The notes under the pieces are model-generated. The model was not told the DNA's origin, did no database searches, and worked only from the letters and a program-made list of their open reading frames with translations. The position numbers were made by a program, and so were the translations under genes. Of a stretch of 32,251 bases of DNA, positions 12,031 to 25,820 are shown piece by piece (the first letter of the stretch is position 1; every line of letters starts with the position of its first letter). This DNA is from Desulfomonilaceae bacterium (GTDB taxonomy: Bacteria; Desulfobacterota; Desulfomonilia; Desulfomonilales; Desulfomonilaceae): assembly GCA_031082285.1 (NCBI GenBank), contig JAVHLK010000053.1:1051-33301 (forward strand), read 5' to 3'.

Positions 12031-12273
12031 ATGGGACTGAAATGCCGACACTGCGGCCTCGAAGGAACGAGGGCCGACTTCAGGCTTCTCCAACGCGTAG
12101 ACGGCGCAGGCCCCGATACGTATCGGCTGTGCCCGAAATGTCACGCCGCGGTCTACTGCGAGGAGCTGGAAGTGATCGATTCAGTTGAAGTCCCCTGGGG
12201 AGCGGGGCGCCTCAGAGGTCATGTGTTTCGCCGCACCGACAAGTCCGACGAACGCGGTTTACAAGAAAAGTGA
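12031..12273 (+). CDS. Small CxxC/CPxC protein, X-succinate synthase beta-like (copy 1)
   Basis: An 80-residue protein with paired cysteines Cys5/Cys8 and Cys34/Cys37 (CPKC) plus Cys43, able to bind a metal or a 4Fe-4S cluster. It aligns with the protein at 17364 and the UGA-containing one at 18100: CxxCG near the N-terminus, an F-x-x-L segment, CPxC, then an acidic stretch; with the 17364 copy it also shares a PWG segment. The small beta subunit of benzylsuccinate synthase is a Cys-rich protein of this size that binds a 4Fe-4S cluster and covers the alpha subunit, so I assign it to that group tentatively. It is the first gene after the sigma-54 promoter, ahead of the activases. A simple zinc ribbon of other function remains possible. 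Confidence 0.65.
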   Translation: MGLKCRHCGLEGTRADFRLLQRVDGAGPDTYRLCPKCHAAVYCEELEVIDSVEVPWGAGRLRGHVFRRTDKSDERGLQEK

Positions 12274-12587
12274 CTCAACCGACATGAAAATCCGCGCGAC
12301 CCCCGGGCAGTAGACCATGTGGGACGCGAGATGGACAGGCATTCCCTGCCTGTAGTGGTCCCGCGCAGAACGCGGGCCGGCCGCCCGGGCACGGGGGCCT
12401 ACCCCTACGGGAACGAGAACGAAAAGTGCGGTGCCTCAAACCTCTTTCGTGGTGAACGCAACCGTATTTATGCCACAGAGTACTTCGTCGAAAGAAGCCG
12501 GCGTGACTTGCCGGTGCACTACGGGGACATCTGCGTTTCAAACAACGCTCTTGGCAACTCCAAAAGTTGGAGAGATTGGCGGGTATC
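12274..12587. other. Intergenic region with two short hairpins before the first activase
   Basis: Here are two perfect six-base inverted repeats: CAGGCA/TGCCTG at 12336-12352 and CCCGCG/CGCGGG at 12360-12376. No gene with recognisable features lies in the 314 bases. The reading frame of the preceding small gene stays open past its TGA across the whole gap, but the translation shows no family motif. The hairpins may set a processing or stability boundary between the small-subunit gene and the activases. Confidence 0.45.
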
Positions 12588-13577
12588 ATGCAACCAGGGG
12601 CTCTGGTAACCGAGATTCAGAGATTTGCCGTGAACGACGGACCCGGCTTCCGGACAAATGTGTTTCTCAAAGGATGTCCGCTCAGCTGCCGCTGGTGCCA
12701 TAACCCGGAAACCATAGCGCCCTATCCCGAAATCTACTGGAAACGGCGTTCATGCGTGCAGTGTGGCGCTTGCCTGGACGCATGTCCCAGGGACGCGGTC
12801 AATGCGCCTATCCACCCCGTCGAAGCGCAAAAGGAAGAATCAACCTACCACAAGATCTTCAGGGAGCGTTGCGACCTCTGCATGAAGTGTGTGGATGCCT
12901 GCAGGTACGGCGCATTGGAGATCGTCGGCACCGAGTTGACCGTCAACGAGATCCTCGACGAGGTGGAACGGGATAGACCGTTCTATGACAACTCGGGTGG
13001 AGGCATGACCGTCAGCGGAGGCGAGCCCACGGCGCACCCCGAGTTTCTCGCGCAGTTGATCGAGGGTGCACGAAGCAGAGGAATCCACATCTGTCTGGAC
13101 ACAAACGGGTATTGTCAATGGGATGTCCTGGGACCGCTCGTGCAGAGCGTCGATATGGTGCTGTACGACCTGAAGCATCTCGATTCGGCCAGGCATGCCG
13201 AGATGGTGGGGGCAGGCAACGAACTCATTCTCGAGAACCTCGCCGGGATCCTCCGTGCCGGCAAGGAGATTTGGCTCCGACAGCCGATCGTTCCCGACTA
13301 CAACGACTCCTGGGAATATCACGTGAAAGCGGCCGAATTCCTCGGGCAGCTTCCCGGCCGGATTCAACGAATCGACCTTCTGCCGTTCCACACCTGGTGC
13401 GAGGACAAGTACTCCTGGCTCGGTCTCGACTGGTCCCTGAGGGCCGCGGAGCCCATGGATCCTTCAATGGTCGAGATTCTTGCGGAGGCGTATCAGGCCC
13501 GCGGATTCGCGGTTACGGCCGGTGGATCCGGATTCGAAGACAACGCCGTGCGAGGAGGTTGCCGGCATGCACCCTGA
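12588..13577 (+). CDS. Glycyl-radical-enzyme activase 1 (radical SAM, BssD-like)
   Basis: A 329-residue radical SAM activase that would use SAM and a 4Fe-4S cluster to install the glycyl radical on the synthase. I chose the ATG at 12588, which places the DGPGFRT activase signature at the usual distance from the N-terminus; the ribosome site is weak and a TTG at 12567 is an alternative. Motifs are DGPGFRT, the cluster CPLSCRWC (Cx3Cx2C), a ferredoxin-like insert with two four-Cys motifs (CVQCGACLDAC and CDLCMKCVDAC) and SGGEP. The insert is typical of activases of benzylsuccinate-synthase-type enzymes. It overlaps activase 2 by 11 bases and is clearly its paralogue. Confidence 0.92.
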   Translation: MQPGALVTEIQRFAVNDGPGFRTNVFLKGCPLSCRWCHNPETIAPYPEIYWKRRSCVQCGACLDACPRDAVNAPIHPVEAQKEESTYHKIFRERCDLCMKCVDACRYGALEIVGTELTVNEILDEVERDRPFYDNSGGGMTVSGGEPTAHPEFLAQLIEGARSRGIHICLDTNGYCQWDVLGPLVQSVDMVLYDLKHLDSARHAEMVGAGNELILENLAGILRAGKEIWLRQPIVPDYNDSWEYHVKAAEFLGQLPGRIQRIDLLPFHTWCEDKYSWLGLDWSLRAAEPMDPSMVEILAEAYQARGFAVTAGGSGFEDNAVRGGCRHAP

Positions 13578-14490
13578 AACCGCGTTCGGAGTGGTCAACG
13601 ACATCCAGAGGATGTGTACGTGCGACGGCCCCGGATTCAGGACCGTGGTTTTCCTCAAGGGTTGTTATCTCAACTGCCGATGGTGTCACAATCCCGAAGG
13701 GAAGAGGCGTTATCCGGAAGTGATCCCCTTTGTGGGAAACTGCGTGAGGTGCGGAGAGTGCTTGAGCGTATGTCCCACGGCCGCGGTGGCCGTTGATGAC
13801 GAGCTCGGGCCTCGGATCGACCGCAGCCTGTGTTCGACATGTCTTCAATGTGTCCGTGCCTGCACACACGACGCTCTTGTGCTGTGGGGACGCATCATGT
13901 CGGTTGAGCAGGTGGTTGCGGAAGTCGAGCAGGACAAGACGCTGTACGTGAATTCAGGCGGCGGCGTAACCATATCCGGGGGTGAGCCCATGGCTCAGCC
14001 CGACTTCGTCAGGGCCGTCATGGAAGCATGCAGGAAGCAAGGCATCGGCACCGCCCTGGATACGTGCGGGCACGCTCCATGGGAAGACATGGAACAGGTG
14101 CTCCGCTTCACGGATCTGGTGATGTTTGACATCAAACAGATGGATACACACGAGCACCGGCAATATTCCGGAGTCGGCAACGAGCTCATTCTGGAGAACG
14201 CGCGACGGATAGCCGCGCTGGGCGTGCCGATACGGTTCCGCATCCCGATTATTCCCGGAAGCAATGACTCAAGGAGAAACTGGGAACGCGCGGCCGGGTT
14301 CATCGGACGCCTCGGGAATGCCGTGTTGGGAGTAGACCTGCTGCCGTACCATCCGTTTGCAGGCGGAAAGTACCAGGCCTTCGGCATGGACTACCCGTAC
14401 CCCGGAGGAGAGGGGCTATCAGACGACGATGTGGCTCCGGTGATCGATCTGTTCCTGGAGCACGTACCAGAAGTTACGGTAGGCGGTTAG
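13567..14490 (+). CDS. bssD-like: Glycyl-radical-enzyme activase 2 (radical SAM, BssD-like)
   Basis: A 307-residue radical SAM activase. The ATG at 13567 has a strong GAGGAGG ribosome site. It has DGPGFRT, the CYLNCRWC cluster motif, two four-Cys ferredoxin-like motifs (CVRCGECLSVC, CSTCLQCVRAC), SGGEP and an LLPYHP segment. It lies directly upstream of the gamma and alpha genes in the order activase-gamma-alpha-beta, as in bssDCAB of toluene degraders, so it is the better candidate for activating the alpha subunit here. Activase 1 may be redundant, specialised, or serve an enzyme encoded elsewhere. Confidence 0.93.
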   Translation: MHPETAFGVVNDIQRMCTCDGPGFRTVVFLKGCYLNCRWCHNPEGKRRYPEVIPFVGNCVRCGECLSVCPTAAVAVDDELGPRIDRSLCSTCLQCVRACTHDALVLWGRIMSVEQVVAEVEQDKTLYVNSGGGVTISGGEPMAQPDFVRAVMEACRKQGIGTALDTCGHAPWEDMEQVLRFTDLVMFDIKQMDTHEHRQYSGVGNELILENARRIAALGVPIRFRIPIIPGSNDSRRNWERAAGFIGRLGNAVLGVDLLPYHPFAGGKYQAFGMDYPYPGGEGLSDDDVAPVIDLFLEHVPEVTVGG

Positions 14491-14528: not shown

Positions 14529-14693
14529 ATGGCGACTTGCAAGGATTGCAAGGGCTTTTTTGCCAGGGAGGACGACCAGGATCGGGGCGACTGCGTGATG
14601 AGAGTGACGGACCCGCGGCAAGCCTACTACAAGGCCGTCCCGGTGGAGGCCGACAAGGATGCCTCAAAATGCTCGTCGTTCCGTAAGAGATAG
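14529..14693 (+). CDS. bssC-like: X-succinate synthase gamma-like small subunit
   Basis: A 54-residue protein too short for most gene callers, with a strong AAGGAGGTGAC ribosome site. Its four cysteines, Cys4, Cys7, Cys22 and Cys48, occur as CKDCKGFF, GDC and KCSSF, the pattern of the gamma subunit of benzylsuccinate synthase, which binds a HiPIP-like 4Fe-4S cluster and stays with the alpha subunit. Position between activase 2 and alpha matches bssC in bssDCAB. The same Cys pattern recurs in the longer protein at 17610. Confidence 0.82.
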   Translation: MATCKDCKGFFAREDDQDRGDCVMRVTDPRQAYYKAVPVEADKDASKCSSFRKR

Positions 14694-14768
14694 AATCCGA
14701 CCCCGCATTCATGCCGTCGGCGACGGGAAATGCAATGAGCCTTGTCGCCGGCACCAAGGAGGAGGAAC

Positions 14769-17273
14769 ATGGGGCAGAGCACAGCCCGGACCGAGAAGGA
14801 ATCAAGTGTCGAGGAACTGAAAAATCGAAGGGAATGGTGGTTTGTTGCGGAGAAGACCAGATCCAAACGGTTGGACTATCTTCGCAAGGGCGTCTGGAAA
14901 AAAGGGGCGATCGGAGGCAACTATGCTCCCGGAATCAAGATTGACCTTACCTTTCCCCAACTCTTCATAGACAAATGGCAGGAGCACGAGGGCGAAGCGA
15001 TTATGCTGCAAAAGGCTCATGCCCTGGCCCACGTCTTGGACAACATCCCCATATTCATTACCGATAATTCTCAGATCATGGGTTACATCGGGAGCGCCCC
15101 GCACAACATCGTTTGGCATTGGCAGGGCATCAGTATGGTCAACGAGGAGATCTACAACGAGGAGGGAATCATACCCGAACCGGAGGAAGAATCTCTCGAG
15201 ATCCTCGCCAATCTGAACGACTACTGGGGCGGCCGCACCGCGGTGGACAAGCTTGCGCGAGTCCTCGATCCCGAAGACGCGGTGAAGTTCATGAGCGGAG
15301 CCATCGGATGGGGAACCCCAACGTCTGCGGCGACCTACTCCACCAAGGATTTCGACTATATCTTCAAGGGATTCGAGGCCATACTCGCCGAGGTCGAAGA
15401 GCGTATGGAAGAGACGGAGGAGAAGCTTCAGGGGAATCCGTCACCGGAAATTCTTCCGCTTTACGACAAGCTCCCCCGGTGGGAAGCCATGCAGATCGTC
15501 CTCGAGGCGGGCATTCGGTATGCCGAACGCTATGCGAGACTTGCCCGAACCTTGGCCGAGCACTTTGAAAGCGATCCCGAGCGAAGAGAAGAACTATTGC
15601 GCATCGCGGAGACCTGCGAACGGGTCCCTGCAAAACCGCCGCGAAACCTTCAGGAATCGCTGCAATTCGACCATTTCGTCCAGGTCCTGTCACGGTACGA
15701 GACCTTTGAGGGAGCATGGCCGCACAGGCCGGATTACATTCACGGACCGTACTACGATAAGGACGTGAACCAGGACAAACGGTTGAGCAAAGAGGAAGCC
15801 CTCGATCTCGTCGGAGAGCATTTGATCCGGACCCACGAGGTGGGCATATTTGCTCCCAAGTGGGCCCGAGAAGGGCTCCAGGGGATCACCGGAACCTGGG
15901 TATGGACCATGGGCGGCGTCAAGCCCGACGGATCCGACGCGTGCAACGATATGACCGTCGCGTACATGCAGGCGGCTCGATTGGTTCGAGTATCCAACCC
16001 TACGTTCGGGTTCCGTTGGCATCCCAAGGTGAAGGATGAGGTCATGCGGGAATGCTTTGAATGCATCCGGCACGGGCTCGGATATCCCTCCATGCGCAAC
16101 GACCCGGTACTGGTGGCGAACACGGTGCACTGGTACGGGCACCCGGTGGAAGAAGCACGAACATGGGTACATCAGGCGTGCATGTCCCCCTGTCCCACTA
16201 CCAAGTACGGCTGCCAGCCCATGCGAATGGCTTCGGCCACGGCCAATTGCGCAAAGATGATCGAGTACGCTCTCCACGACGGGTACGATCCCGTCGTGAA
16301 CATGCAAATGGGGCCCAAGACCGGGGACCCCCGCGAGTTCAAGGACTTCGAGGATCTCTTCGGCGCATGGGTCAAGCAGATGGAGTGGCTCAGGAACATC
16401 CTGGTCCGCACGGTGAATCTAGGCCGAGTCAAAGACCCCGAGTTTTTCGGCAGGCCGTTCCTCTCAGCCATCTATGAACGTGCGGTCGAAACCGGGACCG
16501 ACGCGTGCGATCCGTCCAACGGGGATCGCGGCAACGCGTGGGTGACGGGATTCACATGGGTGGAGAACGCGGACAGCCTGGCTGCGATCAAGAAGTTCGT
16601 CTACGACGAAAAGAAGTACACCATGGATGAAGTCCTGGATGCGCTCAACGCAAACTGGGTTGGTTACGAGGAGATGCGTCTCGACTTTGTCAAGAATGCG
16701 CCGAAGTGGGGCAATGACGACGATTACGTCGACGACCTCATGGTCCGCTGTCTCAGGGAAGTGTCGAGGCATTCCAAAGAGAACCGATGCCCGAGCAACA
16801 ATACGTGGCCGTTGCTGCCGGAAAACGTGAGCGGCAACATTCATTACGCAAACCTGGTGGGAGCTCTCCCCAACGGACGACGGCTTGGAGACGCCTTATA
16901 TGACGGAGGAATCTCGCCGGGTCCGGGACTGGACAAGAAGGGACCCACGGCGGTGCTTAAGTCGTGCGGCAAGTTTGACCATGTCACGGACGGCAGGGCT
17001 TTTCTCCTTAACCAGCGGCTTTCCCCGACACAGCTCTCCGGAGAAAAGGGCTACCAGTTGTGGAAGGCCTACATGAAGACATGGGCCGACCTGGGCCTGG
17101 ACCACGTGCAGTTCAACATGGTCGATGATGCGACCTTGCGGGCCGCTCAAAAGGACCCGGAAAAGTACCAGGAGGTCATCGTCCGGGTCGCGGGTTACAG
17201 TGCCCACTTTGTGGACATCAGTCGAAAGACCCAGGACAACATAATCCAAAGAACAGTTCAAGGACTGGGCTGA
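14769..17273 (+). CDS. bssA-like: Glycyl radical X-succinate synthase, alpha (catalytic) subunit
   Basis: An 834-residue pyruvate-formate-lyase-superfamily enzyme that should add an alkyl or arylmethyl C-H compound across fumarate. The start at 14769 follows AAGGAGGAGGAAC. The active-site Cys is Cys471 in QACMSPCPTTK and the glycyl radical site is Gly809 in RVAGYSA near the C-terminus; their spacing (338) is close to that of benzylsuccinate synthase. Arg486 in QPMRMASA is the likely counterpart of the fumarate-binding arginine. These segments, the small Cys subunits and the gene order point to the benzylsuccinate/alkylsuccinate synthase group rather than formate acetyltransferase, diol dehydratase or choline lyase. 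I cannot distinguish toluene, cresol, methylnaphthalene or n-alkane as substrate from motifs alone. Confidence 0.92.
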   Translation: MGQSTARTEKESSVEELKNRREWWFVAEKTRSKRLDYLRKGVWKKGAIGGNYAPGIKIDLTFPQLFIDKWQEHEGEAIMLQKAHALAHVLDNIPIFITDNSQIMGYIGSAPHNIVWHWQGISMVNEEIYNEEGIIPEPEEESLEILANLNDYWGGRTAVDKLARVLDPEDAVKFMSGAIGWGTPTSAATYSTKDFDYIFKGFEAILAEVEERMEETEEKLQGNPSPEILPLYDKLPRWEAMQIVLEAGIRYAERYARLARTLAEHFESDPERREELLRIAETCERVPAKPPRNLQESLQFDHFVQVLSRYETFEGAWPHRPDYIHGPYYDKDVNQDKRLSKEEALDLVGEHLIRTHEVGIFAPKWAREGLQGITGTWVWTMGGVKPDGSDACNDMTVAYMQAARLVRVSNPTFGFRWHPKVKDEVMRECFECIRHGLGYPSMRNDPVLVANTVHWYGHPVEEARTWVHQACMSPCPTTKYGCQPMRMASATANCAKMIEYALHDGYDPVVNMQMGPKTGDPREFKDFEDLFGAWVKQMEWLRNILVRTVNLGRVKDPEFFGRPFLSAIYERAVETGTDACDPSNGDRGNAWVTGFTWVENADSLAAIKKFVYDEKKYTMDEVLDALNANWVGYEEMRLDFVKNAPKWGNDDDYVDDLMVRCLREVSRHSKENRCPSNNTWPLLPENVSGNIHYANLVGALPNGRRLGDALYDGGISPGPGLDKKGPTAVLKSCGKFDHVTDGRAFLLNQRLSPTQLSGEKGYQLWKAYMKTWADLGLDHVQFNMVDDATLRAAQKDPEKYQEVIVRVAGYSAHFVDISRKTQDNIIQRTVQGLG

Positions 17274-17363: not shown

Positions 17364-17588
17364 ATGAAGTGCAGTGCATGCGCCTTCGAAGCGCCGATCG
17401 GCAAATTCCGTTATCTGTACAACGCTCGAATCGATTCTTCAATCACCATGAGACAATGTCCCCAGTGCGAGCAATGGCTCGCGGTCGACGAATTGCTGGG
17501 AGAGGCCAAAGATGTGGTGAATCCGGGCGAGGCCCCGTGGGGAAAGTCCGCGGGCATCGAGGGGTTGGCTGAGGACGTCCAGGTATGA
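17364..17588 (+). CDS. bssB-like: X-succinate synthase beta-like small subunit (copy 2)
   Basis: A 74-residue protein with Cys3/Cys6 and Cys32/Cys35 (CPQC), an intervening FRYL segment and a C-terminal APWGKSAG stretch. It follows a GAGGAGG ribosome site and lies directly downstream of the alpha gene, the position of bssB in bssDCAB, so it is the best candidate for the true beta subunit with a 4Fe-4S cluster. Copy 1 (12031) and the UGA-containing copy (18100) share its layout. Confidence 0.78.
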   Translation: MKCSACAFEAPIGKFRYLYNARIDSSITMRQCPQCEQWLAVDELLGEAKDVVNPGEAPWGKSAGIEGLAEDVQV

Positions 17589-17609: not shown

Positions 17610-17978
17610 ATGTCCAGGCGCGATAAGTGGAAGAGCGCGAGAGATGCCATGATGGCTCCGCTGGGAAAAACCAAAGGGGTCAAGACCAGGGAAAGCGTGC
17701 CCGAAGTGTGCTGTGGCAAGTGTGAGATGTGGTTTGAAAACGCATACTCGTCCGAGGGCAGAGGCACGTGCCGAGTGCTGAAAATGGGCTCGGAGATCCA
17801 TTCCGATAAGCCGACCTACGTGCTGGAGGGCGACGCGGGACTCATATCATATTTCAACATGGACGCTTCTCATTGCAGCTATTTCTCGAAAATGGAACTC
17901 ATCGACACCGACGGAACGGAATGTTCGGATCCCCTTTTTCGAAGGGCGTTGAGGCAAATGAAGAAATTCAACGAATAG
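17610..17978 (+). CDS. Extended gamma-like Cys-motif small protein
   Basis: A 122-residue protein with a GGAGG ribosome site. Its middle carries CGKCEMWF, then GTC and later HCSYF, the same spacing logic as the 54-residue gamma-like protein (CKDCKGFF, GDC, KCSSF). A basic N-terminal extension of about 35 residues and a C-terminal tail are added. An extra Cys precedes the CxxC (CCGKC). I infer a second gamma-type 4Fe-4S subunit, possibly swapped into the complex under other conditions or binding a different partner. It has no other domain I recognise. Confidence 0.65.
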   Translation: MSRRDKWKSARDAMMAPLGKTKGVKTRESVPEVCCGKCEMWFENAYSSEGRGTCRVLKMGSEIHSDKPTYVLEGDAGLISYFNMDASHCSYFSKMELIDTDGTECSDPLFRRALRQMKKFNE

Positions 17979-18099
17979 GCCCGGGCTTCCGTTCCCGTCC
18001 GGCACACGACATCGCGGAAAGGGAGGCCGGTTGCCGCTGTTTTGCGAGGGCAATCGCGTCCCTTCCGGCGGACCGTGCGCAAAGGACCGAAAAGTGGAA

Positions 18100-18438
18100 A
18101 TGACATGCAGGCAGTGCGGGTTCACCGGATCGCATGCAGAGTTCACGTACCTGTGTAAGTCCGGTTGACCTGCGTGCGGAGAAGCCGATCTCCGCCAATG
18201 CCCCAGGTGTGGGGCACGGAACCTGTTTTCGCGGGCCGAATCTCTTGAAAACGAGCAGGTCGAAATGAGAGATCTCGCCGAGAGGCTTGCAGGCATCTCG
18301 GTACACGCAGGCGCCGAAGACCTGGCAGAGGCCCGACGGATCATTGCGAAACTGAGGAACATGAACCTTAGATGGAACGTTCCCGAGCTGTCGACATTCA
18401 TCAAAGAGCGGCAGCGGGAACTTTTTCTCAGGCGGTAA
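18100..18438 (+). CDS. Candidate selenoprotein: beta-like small protein with in-frame UGA (copy 3)
   Basis: Reading from ATG 18100, codon 23 is TGA (18166-18168) and the same frame stays open to TAA at 18436-18438, giving 112 residues if UGA is decoded. Sequence on both sides aligns with the two beta-like paralogues: before the UGA is Cys3/Cys6 and FTYL, after it is LRQCPRCG (Cys34/Cys37). The UGA lies in C-KSG-U-PAC, a UxxC redox- or metal-type motif in a two-residue insertion absent from the paralogues. A hairpin fitting a bacterial SECIS follows at once. Residues 45-112 form a charged, helix-like extension. The alternative is a Cys codon mutated to TGA, i.e. a pseudogene with a 22-residue product. 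The ribosome site is weak (GGA five bases upstream). Confidence 0.6.
18172..18201 (+). promoter_or_regulatory. Candidate bacterial SECIS hairpin
   Basis: GCGGAGA (18176-18182) pairs perfectly with TCTCCGC (18189-18195) around the loop AGCCGA, which has a G in its first two bases as bacterial SECIS loops require. A lower stem GCGT/ATGC (18172-18175, 18198-18201) extends it across a two-base bulge. The loop begins 14 bases after the UGA, slightly nearer than in E. coli fdhF (about 17). A second hairpin, TGCCCC/GGGGCA at 18199-18216, is an alternative. Confidence 0.5.
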
Positions 18439-18495: not shown

Positions 18496-19344
18496 ATGGC
18501 CGAATTCGACTTGGCAGCTGCGATCCCCTCGCCGGAAAGTCATTTCTTTCTCGAGGAGAGGGAAATCGTCAACCTGGAGCGAATCAACGAGCTCTCAAAG
18601 CGTCATCCCGTCAATCTATTGGTTGCCGGTAAGCAAGGGTGCGGAAAATCGACGCTCGTGCGTCAGTTCGCCGCGCGCAACAGAAGACCGTTGGCCACGT
18701 TTCAGATCGGCATCCTCTCCGAGCCGGGTCAGCTCTTCGGGGAGCACGGACTCAAGGCTGGAGAAACCTACTACCGGAAATTCCTTTTTCCTCAAGCCAT
18801 TCAGACACCCGGTTGCGTCATTCACCTGGAGGAGATCAATCGGCCCGAGCACCCTAAGGCGCTTAACATGCTGTTCTCCGTCCTTGCCGAAGATCGACGG
18901 GTCTGGACGGATGAACTGGGGCTGTTGCAGGTCGCTCCGGAAGTGGTGTTCATCGCTACGCTCAACGAAGGGGATGAGTTCATCGGCACGGAGATGCTGG
19001 ATGCCGCTCTCAGGGATCGCTTCTATGTGACGTTGCTCGGGTACCTGCCTGCGGAAATAGAGGCCAGGGTCCTCGAGCTCAAGACTGGGATTCACAGCTC
19101 CGACGCGTTGACCGTGGTCAACGTCGCAAATCAGCTTCGAGGAAACGCTCAGGAGCCGATGACCGTTTCCACGCGGCATACTCTGATGATCGCGGAATTG
19201 ATCTCGGTGGGAGCATCGGTGAAGGAAGCATTCATCAACAGTCTCTCCATGAGCAAAGATACGCTGGAATCGATTCTCCTCTCCCTGCATATCCAGCTGG
19301 GCCAAACGGGAAAAGATAATGGATTGCGGTATCGGTCCTATTAA
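18496..19344 (+). CDS. bssE-like: MoxR-type AAA+ ATPase 1 (CbbQ/NorQ/BssE-like)
   Basis: A 282-residue AAA+ ATPase. ATG 18496 is preferred over the upstream TTG at 18463 because the paralogue at 23083 has a similar N-terminal length. Motifs are Walker A GKQGCGKST (about 50-58), Walker B VIHLEEINR, the sensor-1 segment ATLNEGDEF and the arginine-finger ALRDRF. It overlaps the VWA gene by 26 bases, the standard MoxR-VWA pairing (CbbQ-CbbO, NorQ-NorD). BssE of toluene degraders is in this family and is thought to act as a chaperone or activase of benzylsuccinate synthase, so a remodelling role on the glycyl radical complex is the natural inference. Confidence 0.9.
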   Translation: MAEFDLAAAIPSPESHFFLEEREIVNLERINELSKRHPVNLLVAGKQGCGKSTLVRQFAARNRRPLATFQIGILSEPGQLFGEHGLKAGETYYRKFLFPQAIQTPGCVIHLEEINRPEHPKALNMLFSVLAEDRRVWTDELGLLQVAPEVVFIATLNEGDEFIGTEMLDAALRDRFYVTLLGYLPAEIEARVLELKTGIHSSDALTVVNVANQLRGNAQEPMTVSTRHTLMIAELISVGASVKEAFINSLSMSKDTLESILLSLHIQLGQTGKDNGLRYRSY

Positions 19345-21130
19345 AATCCGTTCGTCGTCACGAGGACAAACCGCGGATTCAGCCGCAGGCGGTGCAAACC
19401 GGGACAGAGGGCCGGAGCCGGCATTCTGCGAGGAGGCCGTGGTCGATGGAGAAGGTCTTTCGACATATTGGCGCATGAACACCTCGCCGGTGGCCTCCAC
19501 GGAGCTGGCCAATCTATTGAGGGCTCTTCGCAAGGCGGCCGGATACCTTGGCCCGAACGTCGGCCGCATCGAATGGGCCGGTATGTCTCAGGGAGATGCC
19601 GGAGCCATCGTTCTGGACCCGTCGTTTGTCCTTGGCCGCTACCCGATTCCCGGCGAAAAAGTGGACCGTGTGATCGGCGTTCTCGTTCATGAGGCGGTCT
19701 CCAGGATCGAGTGGAGCGACCTGGTCTGGAGGAAGCTGGAGCCGTATCTGGAAGGTATGAAGATTCTGCACAACGTGAAGTTCCAAAAAATTGTGGAAAA
19801 GGGAGAGCAAATCTACTGCGACATGGTCCTGGACCGTTGCATGTTGGGACTGTACGCGGCTCGGGCACGGCGGGCGGCTATGAGCAAGGCTCGCCTGCGC
19901 CTCCCCCCGAACAAGGCCACCCTGGACGAACTCTTGCATCTCTGGTGGGAGAGCACTTGGGGGGAGGAGGACACGCCGGCGGGAGTCCGTTATGACGGCA
20001 CTCTGGAGTCTTTGCGGGAGCTGACCCGCCGGTTGAAAGAGACGAGCGAGTCGTCGGTCCGGGTGGATCGACGCTGCGAGCAACGGAAATCACTCTACAT
20101 CGAGGCATGGGAGAACACCAAGGAGGCCGTTGTCCCTTTGGATGTGGTCGACAAGGTGCTCGTGTGGCATCCGGAACCGCGCTCGACGGAGTCCGGCCCG
20201 CGGCGGAGCACGCGAACGTGCCGCTCGGGAACGGAACTGACGAGCCCTATGGCGGGAAGAGTCGAGATGGAATTGGCCGCACACTCCACCGACCTCACGC
20301 CCATCATACGGTCCGTCGCAGGATACGACAATGAAGATGTGGTGCCCATGTCTCGGTGGGACTTCACCATCGCGGCCCGACCGGTGGTCGACGGACGGCA
20401 GGTGACGAGGCTTCGAGCCTTATTCCGCACGTACGCGGAGAGATCGAAGCTGGTCAGTCGGGGGCTCATAAGCGGGAAGATCGATCAGAAGCGATTGTAT
20501 CGCGCCCCTATCTCCGGCCGTTGCTTCATGGAGGCGCACACCATACCGAACATGAACTGGAACATTTGCCTGCTTGTCGACGCTTCCGGATCCATGAGGG
20601 GAGGCAAATGGCGACTGGTCGAGAATTCCGTCGCCACCATTCACAAGGCTTTTCTCGGGTTTGAGAACTCGTTCCGGGCATGGGCCTACTTCGAGGCCAA
20701 CGGTATCTCGATGCTGAGCAATCTCGTACAGGGGAAAAACCTTCTCTCCATCCCGCCGGCCGGACAGACCACGTCGGGCCAATCCATCATCGCCGCGGCC
20801 TATTTCATGCCGCAGGACAGCCGCAGAAGACTCCTCATACACATAACCGATGGAGAGTCCAATCTTGGCTGCCGCGTGCAGTACGGAATCGATTTCTGTC
20901 GCGAAAGAGGCATACATCTTGTGACTTTGGGGTGCGGCCACACCGATCGCAAGGCACTTCAGGAACAATACGGGAGGAGCATAGAGTTCCTCAACAGCTT
21001 CAGTCGGTTGCCTTCCGTACTGGAGAAACTGCTCAAGTGGACGCTCGTGTACGGCCGCGCGGACAATCACTCGTCATCGCGGCACAGCCGGGCTTTGAGC
21101 CCGTTCGACGGCCGGGGAGGAGCCATGTGA
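19319..21130 (+). CDS. VWA-domain partner protein 1 (CoxE/CbbO/NorD-like)
   Basis: A 603-residue protein with a C-terminal von Willebrand A domain (about residues 415-590) carrying the MIDAS motif DASGSM (metal binding), a TTSGQS segment and ITDGES. The N-terminal region (about 60-200) aligns with the second VWA protein at 24051 (LRALRKAAGYLG, VLGRYPIPG), so they are paralogues. The first ~40 residues are low in recognisable features and a later start is possible. It overlaps the MoxR gene upstream and is coupled to the SCP2-like gene downstream (TGATG). It is expected to link the ATPase ring to the target enzyme. Confidence 0.85.
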   Translation: MDCGIGPIKIRSSSRGQTADSAAGGANRDRGPEPAFCEEAVVDGEGLSTYWRMNTSPVASTELANLLRALRKAAGYLGPNVGRIEWAGMSQGDAGAIVLDPSFVLGRYPIPGEKVDRVIGVLVHEAVSRIEWSDLVWRKLEPYLEGMKILHNVKFQKIVEKGEQIYCDMVLDRCMLGLYAARARRAAMSKARLRLPPNKATLDELLHLWWESTWGEEDTPAGVRYDGTLESLRELTRRLKETSESSVRVDRRCEQRKSLYIEAWENTKEAVVPLDVVDKVLVWHPEPRSTESGPRRSTRTCRSGTELTSPMAGRVEMELAAHSTDLTPIIRSVAGYDNEDVVPMSRWDFTIAARPVVDGRQVTRLRALFRTYAERSKLVSRGLISGKIDQKRLYRAPISGRCFMEAHTIPNMNWNICLLVDASGSMRGGKWRLVENSVATIHKAFLGFENSFRAWAYFEANGISMLSNLVQGKNLLSIPPAGQTTSGQSIIAAAYFMPQDSRRRLLIHITDGESNLGCRVQYGIDFCRERGIHLVTLGCGHTDRKALQEQYGRSIEFLNSFSRLPSVLEKLLKWTLVYGRADNHSSSRHSRALSPFDGRGGAM

Positions 21131-23082: not shown

Positions 23083-23934
23083 ATGAGCGATGGAGACAAA
23101 CAATTGAAGGTTCCTTTGCCGGATGCGAGCTTCTATGCCAGGCAAGAAGACATGTCGAATCTCGACCGGCTGGAGAAGCTTTCCCACGATCACCCGGTGA
23201 ACATACTTGTCACCGGCGGCCAAGGTTGCGGCAAGTCTTCGTTGGTCAGGCAGTTTGCGGCCTTTTACGGAAGGCCCATGGCGACTTTTCAAGTCGGACT
23301 GCTCGTAGAGTCGGGCCAGCTTTTTGGACAACAGAGACTGAAGAACGGGGACACGTACTACCACAGTTTTCTGTTTCCCCGAGCAATCCGGACTGCAGGT
23401 TGCGTGGTCCATCTGGAAGAGATCAACAGATCGGAGACGCCGCACGCGTTGAACGAGCTGTTTTCCGTGCTTTCCGAAGACAGAAACATCTGGATCGACG
23501 AATTGGGTCTGGTGGAAACGGCACCGCAGGTGATCTTCTTCGCGACAATGAACGAGGGCGAGGAGTTTTCGGGAACCGACAGATTGGACGCGGCTCTCAG
23601 GGACAGGTTCTATCGTGTCCATTTGGATGGGCTGCCCGCGGTGGTGGAAAGAAAGGTGCTGATCCAAAAGGCGGGGATTGATGAAGATGCTGCAGGCCGG
23701 CTCATGAGAGTCATAAGCGTTTTGCGGAACAACAAACAAATGGGGATCAAGGTCTCCATACGCCACAGTCTCATGATGGCAAAACTCATGGCGCAGAGTG
23801 CGTCATTGAGGGAAGCGCTCATCTACAGTCTCCAGGTTTCCAAAGACACGTTGGAGTCGCTCCTTCTGACGGCCCATGTCGAGACCGGCGAATGGGAGAC
23901 CGATTCCAACGGTTACAGGCCGTATTTGGCGTAG
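23083..23934 (+). CDS. MoxR-type AAA+ ATPase 2 (paralogue of the one at 18496)
   Basis: A 283-residue AAA+ ATPase with Walker A GGQGCGKSS, Walker B VVHLEEINR, sensor ATMNEGEEF and arginine finger ALRDRF. It aligns nearly end to end with MoxR 1 (for example HPVNIL, VRQFAA, TFQVG, GQLFG, SKDTLES in both), so the pair arose by duplication. The VWA partner follows after a 116-base gap filled by a palindromic repeat, whereas in the first pair the two genes overlap. It probably forms a second remodelling complex with that partner. Confidence 0.9.
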   Translation: MSDGDKQLKVPLPDASFYARQEDMSNLDRLEKLSHDHPVNILVTGGQGCGKSSLVRQFAAFYGRPMATFQVGLLVESGQLFGQQRLKNGDTYYHSFLFPRAIRTAGCVVHLEEINRSETPHALNELFSVLSEDRNIWIDELGLVETAPQVIFFATMNEGEEFSGTDRLDAALRDRFYRVHLDGLPAVVERKVLIQKAGIDEDAAGRLMRVISVLRNNKQMGIKVSIRHSLMMAKLMAQSASLREALIYSLQVSKDTLESLLLTAHVETGEWETDSNGYRPYLA

Positions 23935-23970
23935 TGCGCCGTTTCCCAAATACGTTCACGTTCATCAGCA

Positions 23971-24037
23971 CCGTCTCCCCGGCGAAGGCCGGGGCCAAGT
24001 CTTCCTTCTTTGACCCCGGCCTTCACCGGGGAGACGG
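23971..24037. repeat. REP/MITE-like palindromic element
   Basis: Two 24-base arms (23971-23994 and 24014-24037) are inverted repeats with a single mismatch, separated by 19 bases. The arm core CCCCGG-CGAAGG-CCGGGG is itself a short palindrome. This resembles the dispersed GC-rich palindromes (CCCCGGCcttcGCCGGGG type) found between genes in many proteobacteria. It lies between MoxR 2 and VWA 2, ending 14 bases before the VWA start. Confidence 0.75.
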
Positions 24038-24050
24038 GCAGGTTTCGCCC

Positions 24051-25820
24051 ATGAGTTTTAACATCCTGGACGGCAAGGCCCTTTCCACCCGATACATCGC
24101 CGCGGATCGATCGGGAAAGGCCATATCGCGGTACTGGCGCAGGTTGCGGGCGGAAGATGAGGCGACGGAACTTGCTCTCGTGTTGCGAGCGCTCCGCAAG
24201 GTGGCCGAACACATTGGGTCCGCGGTAAGACCGGTATACTGGCTCGGTATGACCCCTTCATCGGGTTCTTGCATCATAGTCGATCCTCATGAGTTTGTCG
24301 GTCGATATCCTATGCCTCCGAGGTCCGTCGACGTTCTTGTGGGACTCGTCGTGAAAGAAGCGTACTACGACCTTGAGTGGAGTCACTGGGTGAGGACGAA
24401 GACTGTGGACCTGTGCAGCGAAAGGCTTCGGGACGCCTCGGATTATCTCATCGGCGTCTTGGCTGCAGGGGAGGATATCTTCGTGGATGCCGCGCTGCCG
24501 GACCATAGCGTGCTCTCCCTCTACCTCAGTAAGTACTGGAGACATTCACTTTCGGGCAACGATCGCGATCCGTCGCTTCCGCCCAATCCCGAGTCTCTTG
24601 CGGATGTGTGGAGGGCAATCGTGCTCACCGGTCACTCACCCAAGAAGCTCCATCAAGGGTACGACAGGCCTCTTCAAGTGCTCCTGAATCACACCGACCT
24701 TCTCAGGGATCTACGACTCTTGGCGACCGTTTCTGAGCGACGAGTCGCACGAGTGGACCTGTACGAGCGCTTGTGGACCTGCCTTAGTCCCCACCTCTCA
24801 AGAATCGAAGGCGATGAAACTCCGCCGCGGGGTGTGCTTATAAGGGAATCGGGTGCTCCCCGGAAGGCGCCTCCGGAAAAGGAGCGGCCCAAGAAAGAAG
24901 AGTCGGAAGACCGAGCCGACGTGCAGGAACCGTCAAAGGGCTTGGAACGTGAGGTCGGGGAAGAAGTGGCTTCCATACTGGACAATGACCGACCCGATGT
25001 GGACAACTGGGTTCGTACCGTGGTGAAAGACGAAGACGAGAAGGTGATGCCCACGGCCGTGTCCGCGGGTTCGGCGCTCTGCAGCGTGAAGCCCGATCCT
25101 GACCTGGTACACAGGCTGAAGAAAATCTTCCAAGCTCAGCACGCGGGGGAGCGGAGATTCGCCCGAAGGCGAACCAGAAGAGGCTTGACGGAAGGAAAGG
25201 TTGATTCTCGAAGACTCTATCGCTGGTCTATTGACGAGAAGATATTCAAGATGCGACAGAAACTTGAACCGGATCAACAGTGGTCAATAAGCCTCGTAGT
25301 CGATGCCTCGGCATCCATGGCCCGCAAGAATCGCGGAGAGTTCCCCTGGACCGCGACTGAGAAGACACTTGTTTCCCTGGCGGAAGCCGCAAAACAATCA
25401 AGAACCAAGCTCCAAGTTTACGCGTATTACGAGCAGGGTCGGTGTTGTCAAATAGTCTCTCTCTTATCGGGCGACAATGTCTTTACCCTCTGCCCGACGG
25501 GAGAAACCCCATCCGGGCAGGCACTCCTGGCCGCAGCTCTCCTCAGTTCCGGGAAAGCCGGAAAGACCCTGATTCTCCATGTGACCGATGGGGGAGCCAA
25601 TTGCGGCATTGATGTTTCGCACGCCACGGCGTACTGCGTGAAGAACGGGATCGATCTGGTAACGCTGGGGTGCGGCTACACCGCACAAACGCGACGGATG
25701 CTGACGGAACAGTACGAAAACCGGCTTCGTCTCATGGAAGGCATGTACCATCTACCCGAATGCTTAGAGGGTCTCATACGCGAGCGACTCCTCACGGACC
25801 GCCGCACATGCACGTCCTGA
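24051..25820 (+). CDS. VWA-domain partner protein 2
   Basis: A 589-residue protein. I chose ATG 24051; an in-frame start at 23892 would put the palindromic repeat inside the coding region and overlap MoxR 2. The N-terminal region aligns with VWA 1 (LRALRKVAEHIG, VGRYPMPP). A charged, Lys/Glu/Pro-rich linker follows around residues 265-310. The C-terminal VWA domain carries MIDAS DASASM, a TPSGQA segment and VTDGGA. It would be the adaptor of MoxR 2. Its linker and MIDAS surroundings differ from VWA 1, so the two complexes may recognise different targets. Confidence 0.85.
   Translation: MSFNILDGKALSTRYIAADRSGKAISRYWRRLRAEDEATELALVLRALRKVAEHIGSAVRPVYWLGMTPSSGSCIIVDPHEFVGRYPMPPRSVDVLVGLVVKEAYYDLEWSHWVRTKTVDLCSERLRDASDYLIGVLAAGEDIFVDAALPDHSVLSLYLSKYWRHSLSGNDRDPSLPPNPESLADVWRAIVLTGHSPKKLHQGYDRPLQVLLNHTDLLRDLRLLATVSERRVARVDLYERLWTCLSPHLSRIEGDETPPRGVLIRESGAPRKAPPEKERPKKEESEDRADVQEPSKGLEREVGEEVASILDNDRPDVDNWVRTVVKDEDEKVMPTAVSAGSALCSVKPDPDLVHRLKKIFQAQHAGERRFARRRTRRGLTEGKVDSRRLYRWSIDEKIFKMRQKLEPDQQWSISLVVDASASMARKNRGEFPWTATEKTLVSLAEAAKQSRTKLQVYAYYEQGRCCQIVSLLSGDNVFTLCPTGETPSGQALLAAALLSSGKAGKTLILHVTDGGANCGIDVSHATAYCVKNGIDLVTLGCGYTAQTRRMLTEQYENRLRLMEGMYHLPECLEGLIRERLLTDRRTCTS

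Follow-up and report, generated by a model that had tools for sequence, protein, structure and literature searches.

The window, by which we mean the whole stretch of 32,251 nucleotides analysed here, holds a complete mas cluster, and the genes and elements whose coordinates are given below with two dots lie on its plus strand. The gene masD (14742..17273, limits of the open reading frame, with the exact start not fixed) encodes the alpha subunit of (1-methylalkyl)succinate synthase (MASS), a glycyl radical enzyme with PF02901 and PF01228 domains that matches the alpha chain of the MASS structure (PDB 9o8u_A) at 1397 bits, against 493 bits for the alpha subunit of benzylsuccinate synthase (BSS). 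The enzyme is therefore an alkylsuccinate synthase, and not of the benzylsuccinate synthase type to which the original prediction had assigned it. Downstream lie masE (17364..17588; PDB 9o8u_D, E 2.9e-22), which encodes the delta subunit and rubredoxin-like paralogue of the protein considered here, and masB (17610..17978; PDB 9o8u_B, E 4.5e-31), which encodes the beta subunit. A small Cys-rich ORF of 54 amino acids between the activase genes and masD (14529..14693), conserved in loci L033, L034, L040 and L105, is probably masC, encoding the gamma subunit, judging from its size, place and Cys pattern only.

Two radical SAM glycyl-radical-enzyme activases are encoded further upstream (12567..13577 and 13567..14490; TIGR02494 at 329.5 and 315.6 bits), so that a single MasD has two different activases encoded next to each other; in several relatives the second is missing. 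Just upstream of both, 12031..12273 encodes a second MasE-like small protein without selenocysteine (Sec), with a CxxC...CPxC pattern (hhalign, 98.1% against the MasE family). It is conserved at this place in the mas clusters of L033, L102, L104, L107 and L113, and its product is possibly another accessory of MASS activation. This ORF was also considered as masC and rejected, since it is MasE-like and the 54-amino-acid ORF at 14529 fits better. Downstream of masB, a MoxR/NorQ-type AAA ATPase (18496..19344; PF07728, PF08406) is followed by its VWA-domain partner (19319..21130; PF00092), and the cluster contains two mutually related pairs of this kind (18496-21130 and 23083-25820). Pathway genes, named from their ORF sequences, include an MCM-like mutase, a MeaB-like gene, an MmgE/PrpD-like gene and acyl-CoA genes.

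Between masB and the MoxR ATPase gene, and directly 5′ of the latter, lies the putative selenoprotein gene (18094..18438), whose product would be 114 amino acids long with Sec. Its start is probably GTG 18094 rather than the next possible start, ATG 18100, because homologues begin two residues upstream of the position of that ATG (MDxTC, or VELxC with a non-ATG start) and because a Shine-Dalgarno-like AAGGA (18082-18086) stands 7 nucleotides upstream of the GTG. Residue numbers such as Sec23 nevertheless count codons from ATG 18100 throughout. An in-frame TGA (18166..18168) forms codon 23 on this count, and codon 25 from the GTG, and the frame is open on both sides of it, as had been predicted, running through to the TAA at 18436-18438. 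The predicted C-x3-U-x2-C motif is likewise present, as C19-x3-U23-P-A-C26, and is located between the CxxC knuckles C3/C6 and C34/C37. Elsewhere UGA serves as a normal stop; masE of the same operon terminates in TGA, and so does the Desulfomonile homologue of the selenoprotein gene itself.

Profile searches of the class and of the host's phylum, the one covered in depth, found the readthrough gene family in 21 genomes. The column in question holds UGA in 14 genomes from 8 families and Cys at exactly the same position in nine genes from two further families, and no codon other than UGA or those for Cys occurs there, neither of the other two stops included. In all members the alignment past the UGA runs to the end of the gene without other stops, so that the UGA/Cys column and the conservation beyond it, for which a homologue search had been proposed, do exist, with no random stops. 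One homologue, found by scanning genome contigs, is a gene in a Desulfomonile MAG with 78% identity, the same length and TGA at the identical codon. Between it and the window gene, dN is 0.143 and dS 0.478 in the region after the UGA; purifying selection thus continues downstream of the UGA. Taken together, the 78% identical homologue with TGA, the 14 genomes with TGA and the aligned Cys homologues make the UGA pattern more than chance. The best topology of a tree built from 23 proteins has three switches between Sec and Cys, but its well-supported branches require only one, so that repeated switching within the family is no more than suggested. Most of the Cys-type genomes still carry Sec machinery, and Cys is therefore not simply a consequence of its loss.

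Other searches added no members. Matches in G036 and G004 from an early search were rejected, being MasE and a chance match, respectively, and order-wide searches around G042 and G246 found no further family members. Searches of plasmids by tblastn with the selenoprotein and with MasD gave chance matches or none, a scan of viral contigs gave a single match to an unrelated phage-type zinc-ribbon protein, and Pfam and NCBIfam contain no family that the selenoprotein matches above cut-off. A partial copy of the family gene, covering residues 41-90, occurs at G024:C10:34790-34939 (L031/L061) and is apparently a decayed duplicate.

A shorter relative of about 66 amino acids (...GTGGU-HTVG...RKCPRCG) is present in three genomes (G168, G341 and G375; L062, L063 and L064). 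An in-frame TGA occupies the corresponding codon, and a comparable hairpin shows compensating changes. The gene is not part of the mas cluster, and at the G341 and G375 loci it stands beside a glycosyltransferase and a radical SAM gene. This is probably another undescribed small selenoprotein.

The UGA of the window gene is followed by a SECIS-like hairpin (18176..18195), supported by covariation and a synonymous-codon test, in which a stem of 7 bp (GCGGAGA/TCTCCGC; 18176-18182/18189-18195) begins 7 nucleotides 3′ of the UGA and closes a loop of six nucleotides (AGCCGA, 18183-18188). The original prediction had described this element correctly, including the perfect seven-pair stem, the six-base loop with G at its second position, the start seven nucleotides past the UGA, and the short UGA-to-loop distance of 14 nucleotides, which is 2 nucleotides under the published bacterial SECIS minimum. 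Across 16 distinct UGA sequences, comprising 14 genes of the main family and 2 shorter relatives, 87.5% of stem cells are paired, with 12 double-sided changes. The covariation score of this stem was matched by none of 500 shuffles, and sliding the stem partners along the alignment abolishes the pairing signal. In contrast, the same columns in the nine Cys sequences are 61.9% paired with zero double-sided changes, and RNAalifold found no structure in these nine sequences. Randomising synonymous codons, with the codon usage of the window applied to all genes as a simplification, gave a mean of 4.29 ± 0.29 pairs for the Sec genes against an observed 6.12 of 7, a value that none of 5000 replicates reached, whereas 959 of 5000 did so for the Cys genes, which are thus ordinary in this regard; for the window gene alone the proportion was 2.2%. 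The hairpin is therefore maintained in the UGA genes by paired changes beyond the constraint of the protein sequence, and in the Cys genes it is not.

The bSECIS model calls for a loop of 3-9 nucleotides, a stem of 4-16 bp, an MFE of ≤ −7.5, a G within the first two loop positions and a UGA-to-loop distance of 16-37 nucleotides (PMC13188914). The window hairpin agrees with the model in its loop, stem, G and energy, the 45 nucleotides following the UGA having an MFE of −19.1 kcal/mol, and the G rule holds for 14 of the 16 sequences. However, the spacing of 14 nucleotides falls outside the modelled 16-37 (the alignment of the Sec members is gapless). Some true selenoprotein genes lie outside the bSECIS model (PMC13188914), and the short spacing therefore lowers the fit to the model but not the weight of the other evidence. 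The Sec-containing SelD of the same genomes has a hairpin with the usual, greater spacing of about 20 nucleotides, and acceptance of the short spacing by SelB is therefore an assumption. An Rfam scan of the window returned zero matches.

The host assembly (5.6 Mb, 99.9% complete) belongs to the same family as the Desulfomonile MAG and carries a tRNA-Sec (71.4 bits, TCA anticodon), SelB (393.9 bits) and a Sec-containing SelD (366 bits). The original prediction had singled out a host without selB or selC as a finding that would count against it, and the opposite was found. Among the other Sec genomes, counted from draft assemblies, only G224 (85% complete) has no SelB match and only G393 has no tRNA-Sec above threshold, both with Sec-SelD present, while the tRNA-Sec of G116 is marginal (47.2 bits vs. 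a cut-off of 47). We propose that SelB and tRNA-Sec would insert Sec at UGA 18166, directed by the hairpin just 3′ of it.

Two other explanations of the UGA may be considered. It could be a true stop, with the downstream part made by reinitiation, for example at the in-frame ATG of Met56, or by nonspecific readthrough that inserts Trp or some other amino acid. However, any conserved start lies beyond residues 24-47, which rank with the best-conserved of the family, and neither the restriction of the column to UGA or Cys nor the selection on the hairpin would be expected, which makes this explanation very improbable. A nonsense mutation of a Cys codon producing a pseudogene, which the original prediction had allowed for, or an assembly error, might be suspected from the Cys in the nine homologous genes, but 14 independent genomes from 8 families share the TGA at this codon, selection persists past it and the covarying hairpin occurs only in UGA genes, so that the chance of this is practically negligible. 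On sequence evidence, UGA 18166 is almost certainly decoded as Sec. The central claim of the original prediction, a new selenoprotein linked to a fumarate-adding glycyl radical enzyme, is thus supported by the conserved UGA, the Cys column, selection, the hairpin and the host machinery, the SECIS spacing being the one computational test that it does not pass.

The selenoprotein and MasE, the rubredoxin-like delta subunit of MASS, are paralogues. Aligned with hhalign, its first 41 residues match MasE at 94.9% (E 4.8e-8) with all four Cys aligned, and the family matches the MasE-like gene at 12031 at 96.3%. The first metal knuckle (C3-x2-C6; 18106..18117) aligns with Cys3/Cys6 of MASS delta and the second (C34-P-x-C37; 18199..18210) with Cys32/Cys35, both being invariant in 15 aligned members. 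In MASS delta these four residues bind a single Fe in a rubredoxin-like fold, and the tail of the protein contacts and lies on the glycyl radical domain (PMC12358834). This tail, APWGKSAGIE, is invariant in MasE and missing in the selenoprotein, where it is replaced by a C-terminal three-helix bundle (residues 44-112; 18229..18435) that is predicted by AlphaFold2 and absent from MasE. Given the lack of the tail and the presence of a separate masE, the selenoprotein is a paralogue and not MasE itself. The AlphaFold2 model has a pLDDT of about 90 over residues 51-110, whereas the N-terminal domain is of low confidence and its fold is not confidently modelled, because only two sequences were submitted; a Foldseek search of the model against the PDB gave no significant match. 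The label "beta-like" in the original prediction was wrong, since MasB is encoded by a separate neighbouring gene and no sequence relation was found between it and the selenoprotein.

It had also been proposed that the UGA motif lies in an insertion absent from the paralogues. This is right for the Cys and Sec residues of the linker between the knuckles, which are missing in MasE, but the linker as such exceeds that of MasE by no more than two residues. Most members have C19, Sec23 and C26 all in this loop, with C19 replaced by Ser in G246 and G218 and C26 by Thr in G042, G081, G116, G224 and G218. The resolving Cys near Sec23 is usually C26 and sometimes C19, C22 or C28, and where C26 is Thr, C22 or C28 appears.

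In all loci of relatives but that of G218, the selenoprotein gene adjoins a MoxR ATPase gene if the contig is long enough to show it, and masE is just upstream in most, with intervening genes in G122. In G218 (L109, G218:C11), the gene is unlinked to mas and stands beside genes for a 2-hydroxyacyl-CoA dehydratase-like protein, an SDR and an aminotransferase. In the 395 genomes of the phylum that were compared, MasD and the selenoprotein gene occur together in 16, MasD alone in 3 (G036, G267 and G306), the gene alone in 2 and neither of them in 374 (Fisher p about 1e-23, a value inflated by shared ancestry); in the two gene-only genomes the mas clusters are cut by contig ends or have no strong MasD match. 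One locus (L107, G414:C88:24069-29712) contains a tandem pair of masD-masE units within one mas cluster. The seven-gene mas cluster of strain HxN1 (masA-masG) is without such a gene, and HxN1 MASS was produced in E. coli without it (PMC12358834). Since the gene is absent from the HxN1 cluster and from the mas cluster of G036, it would be an accessory and not part of catalysis, and an accessory role for MASS is very likely.

Pairs of MoxR and VWA proteins are known as chaperones that remodel metalloenzymes. We consider the protein most likely a Sec-based redox accessory of MASS that acts with the adjacent MoxR and VWA proteins, with the chemistry and the partner being what we infer. The N-terminal rubredoxin-like domain (C3-x2-C6...C34-x2-C37) would bind probably one Fe or Zn, while in the loop between the knuckles Sec23 and the resolving Cys may form a selenenylsulfide redox pair. 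Through a selenenylsulfide cycle, the selenol could maintain or restore a reduced thiol or metal site for the assembly or activation of MASS, with the delta subunit, the activase or the glycyl radical domain as possible targets of reduction, and the MoxR ATPase and VWA protein might remodel the complex so that the activase reaches the glycyl radical domain. In MASS, delta occupies the binding site of the activase and must move or leave, and how it moves and whether it reduces the activase were left open (PMC12358834). It is plausible that a Sec-bearing delta paralogue, together with MoxR/VWA, is a factor for the displacement of delta or for reductive repair. A redox role of Sec is favoured on balance, whereas the specific partner and step of its action can be named only tentatively. 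The combination of a Sec-decoded protein, an accessory role for MASS and a redox-type role in general appears fairly likely. In the fullest version, no glycyl radical enzyme system before this one would have had a Sec protein, and here it would be a redox partner which, helped by a MoxR/VWA motor, activated or repaired the enzyme that attacks alkanes through displacement or reduction of delta or the activase; this version has in our estimate appreciably less than an even chance.

Alternatively, the protein might be a competing delta, whose rubredoxin-like domain docks at the MasE site on MASS alpha and displaces MasE while Sec tunes or senses redox state. The profile homology to MasE, the need for the activase-blocking delta to move (PMC12358834) and the MoxR ATPase adjacent in nearly all loci all speak for it, but a helical bundle stands in place of the tail that in MASS delta contacts the glycyl radical domain, and we regard this as rather unlikely. 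Still less probably, Sec23 would not be a redox catalyst but would bind metal, either at an additional site or in a modified rubredoxin centre. The presence of C19, Sec23 and C26 in the loop of most members and the replacement of Sec by Cys would suit such a role, but with the losses of C19 and C26 listed above only position 23 is fixed, which leaves no constant ligand set besides the four knuckle Cys. A redox pair, by comparison, fits better than a second fixed metal site, because the knuckle Cys are invariant and the Cys partners of Sec23 shift.

A 2026 review of prokaryotic selenoproteins lists no rubredoxin-, glycyl- or alkane-related family (PMC13188914), and the paper on the MASS structure does not mention selenium (PMC12358834). 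In the open-access literature, covered in part, we found nothing joining a selenoprotein with alkylsuccinate synthase, and the papers that name both selenocysteine and benzylsuccinate synthase are, by their titles, about other matters; an earlier mention elsewhere is possible given this partial coverage. The present family thus adds one that is missing from the 2026 catalogue (PMC13188914) and connects selenium with the activation of alkanes under anaerobic conditions, an important step in the biodegradation of oil. It also gives a handle on the questions raised by the 2025 MASS structure, namely what this enzyme needs its rubredoxin-like subunit for and how access of the activase is made possible (PMC12358834). 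Ordinary gene callers would cut or miss the selenoprotein gene, and if MASS of Sec-type bacteria were rebuilt in a host that has no compatible Sec system, this protein would therefore be missing.

Among known proteins, MasE (PDB 9o8u chain D) shares with the selenoprotein the CX2C...CX2C N-terminal domain, the cluster and profile homology, but the linker of the selenoprotein holds a Sec/Cys pair, and its C-terminus is a helical bundle where MasE has the APWGKSAGIE tail. The beta and gamma subunits of BSS and the gamma subunit of HPAD are likewise small Cys-rich accessory proteins encoded with a glycyl radical enzyme, but unlike the selenoprotein they are HiPIP-like [4Fe-4S] proteins without Sec (PMC12358834). 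The predicted UxxC/UxxT selenoproteins of prokaryotes share with it a UGA that has Cys homologues and a redox-typical UxxC or UxxT motif, whereas the present protein would place this motif on a rubredoxin-like scaffold associated with an enzyme of the glycyl radical type, unlike those catalogued (PMC13188914).
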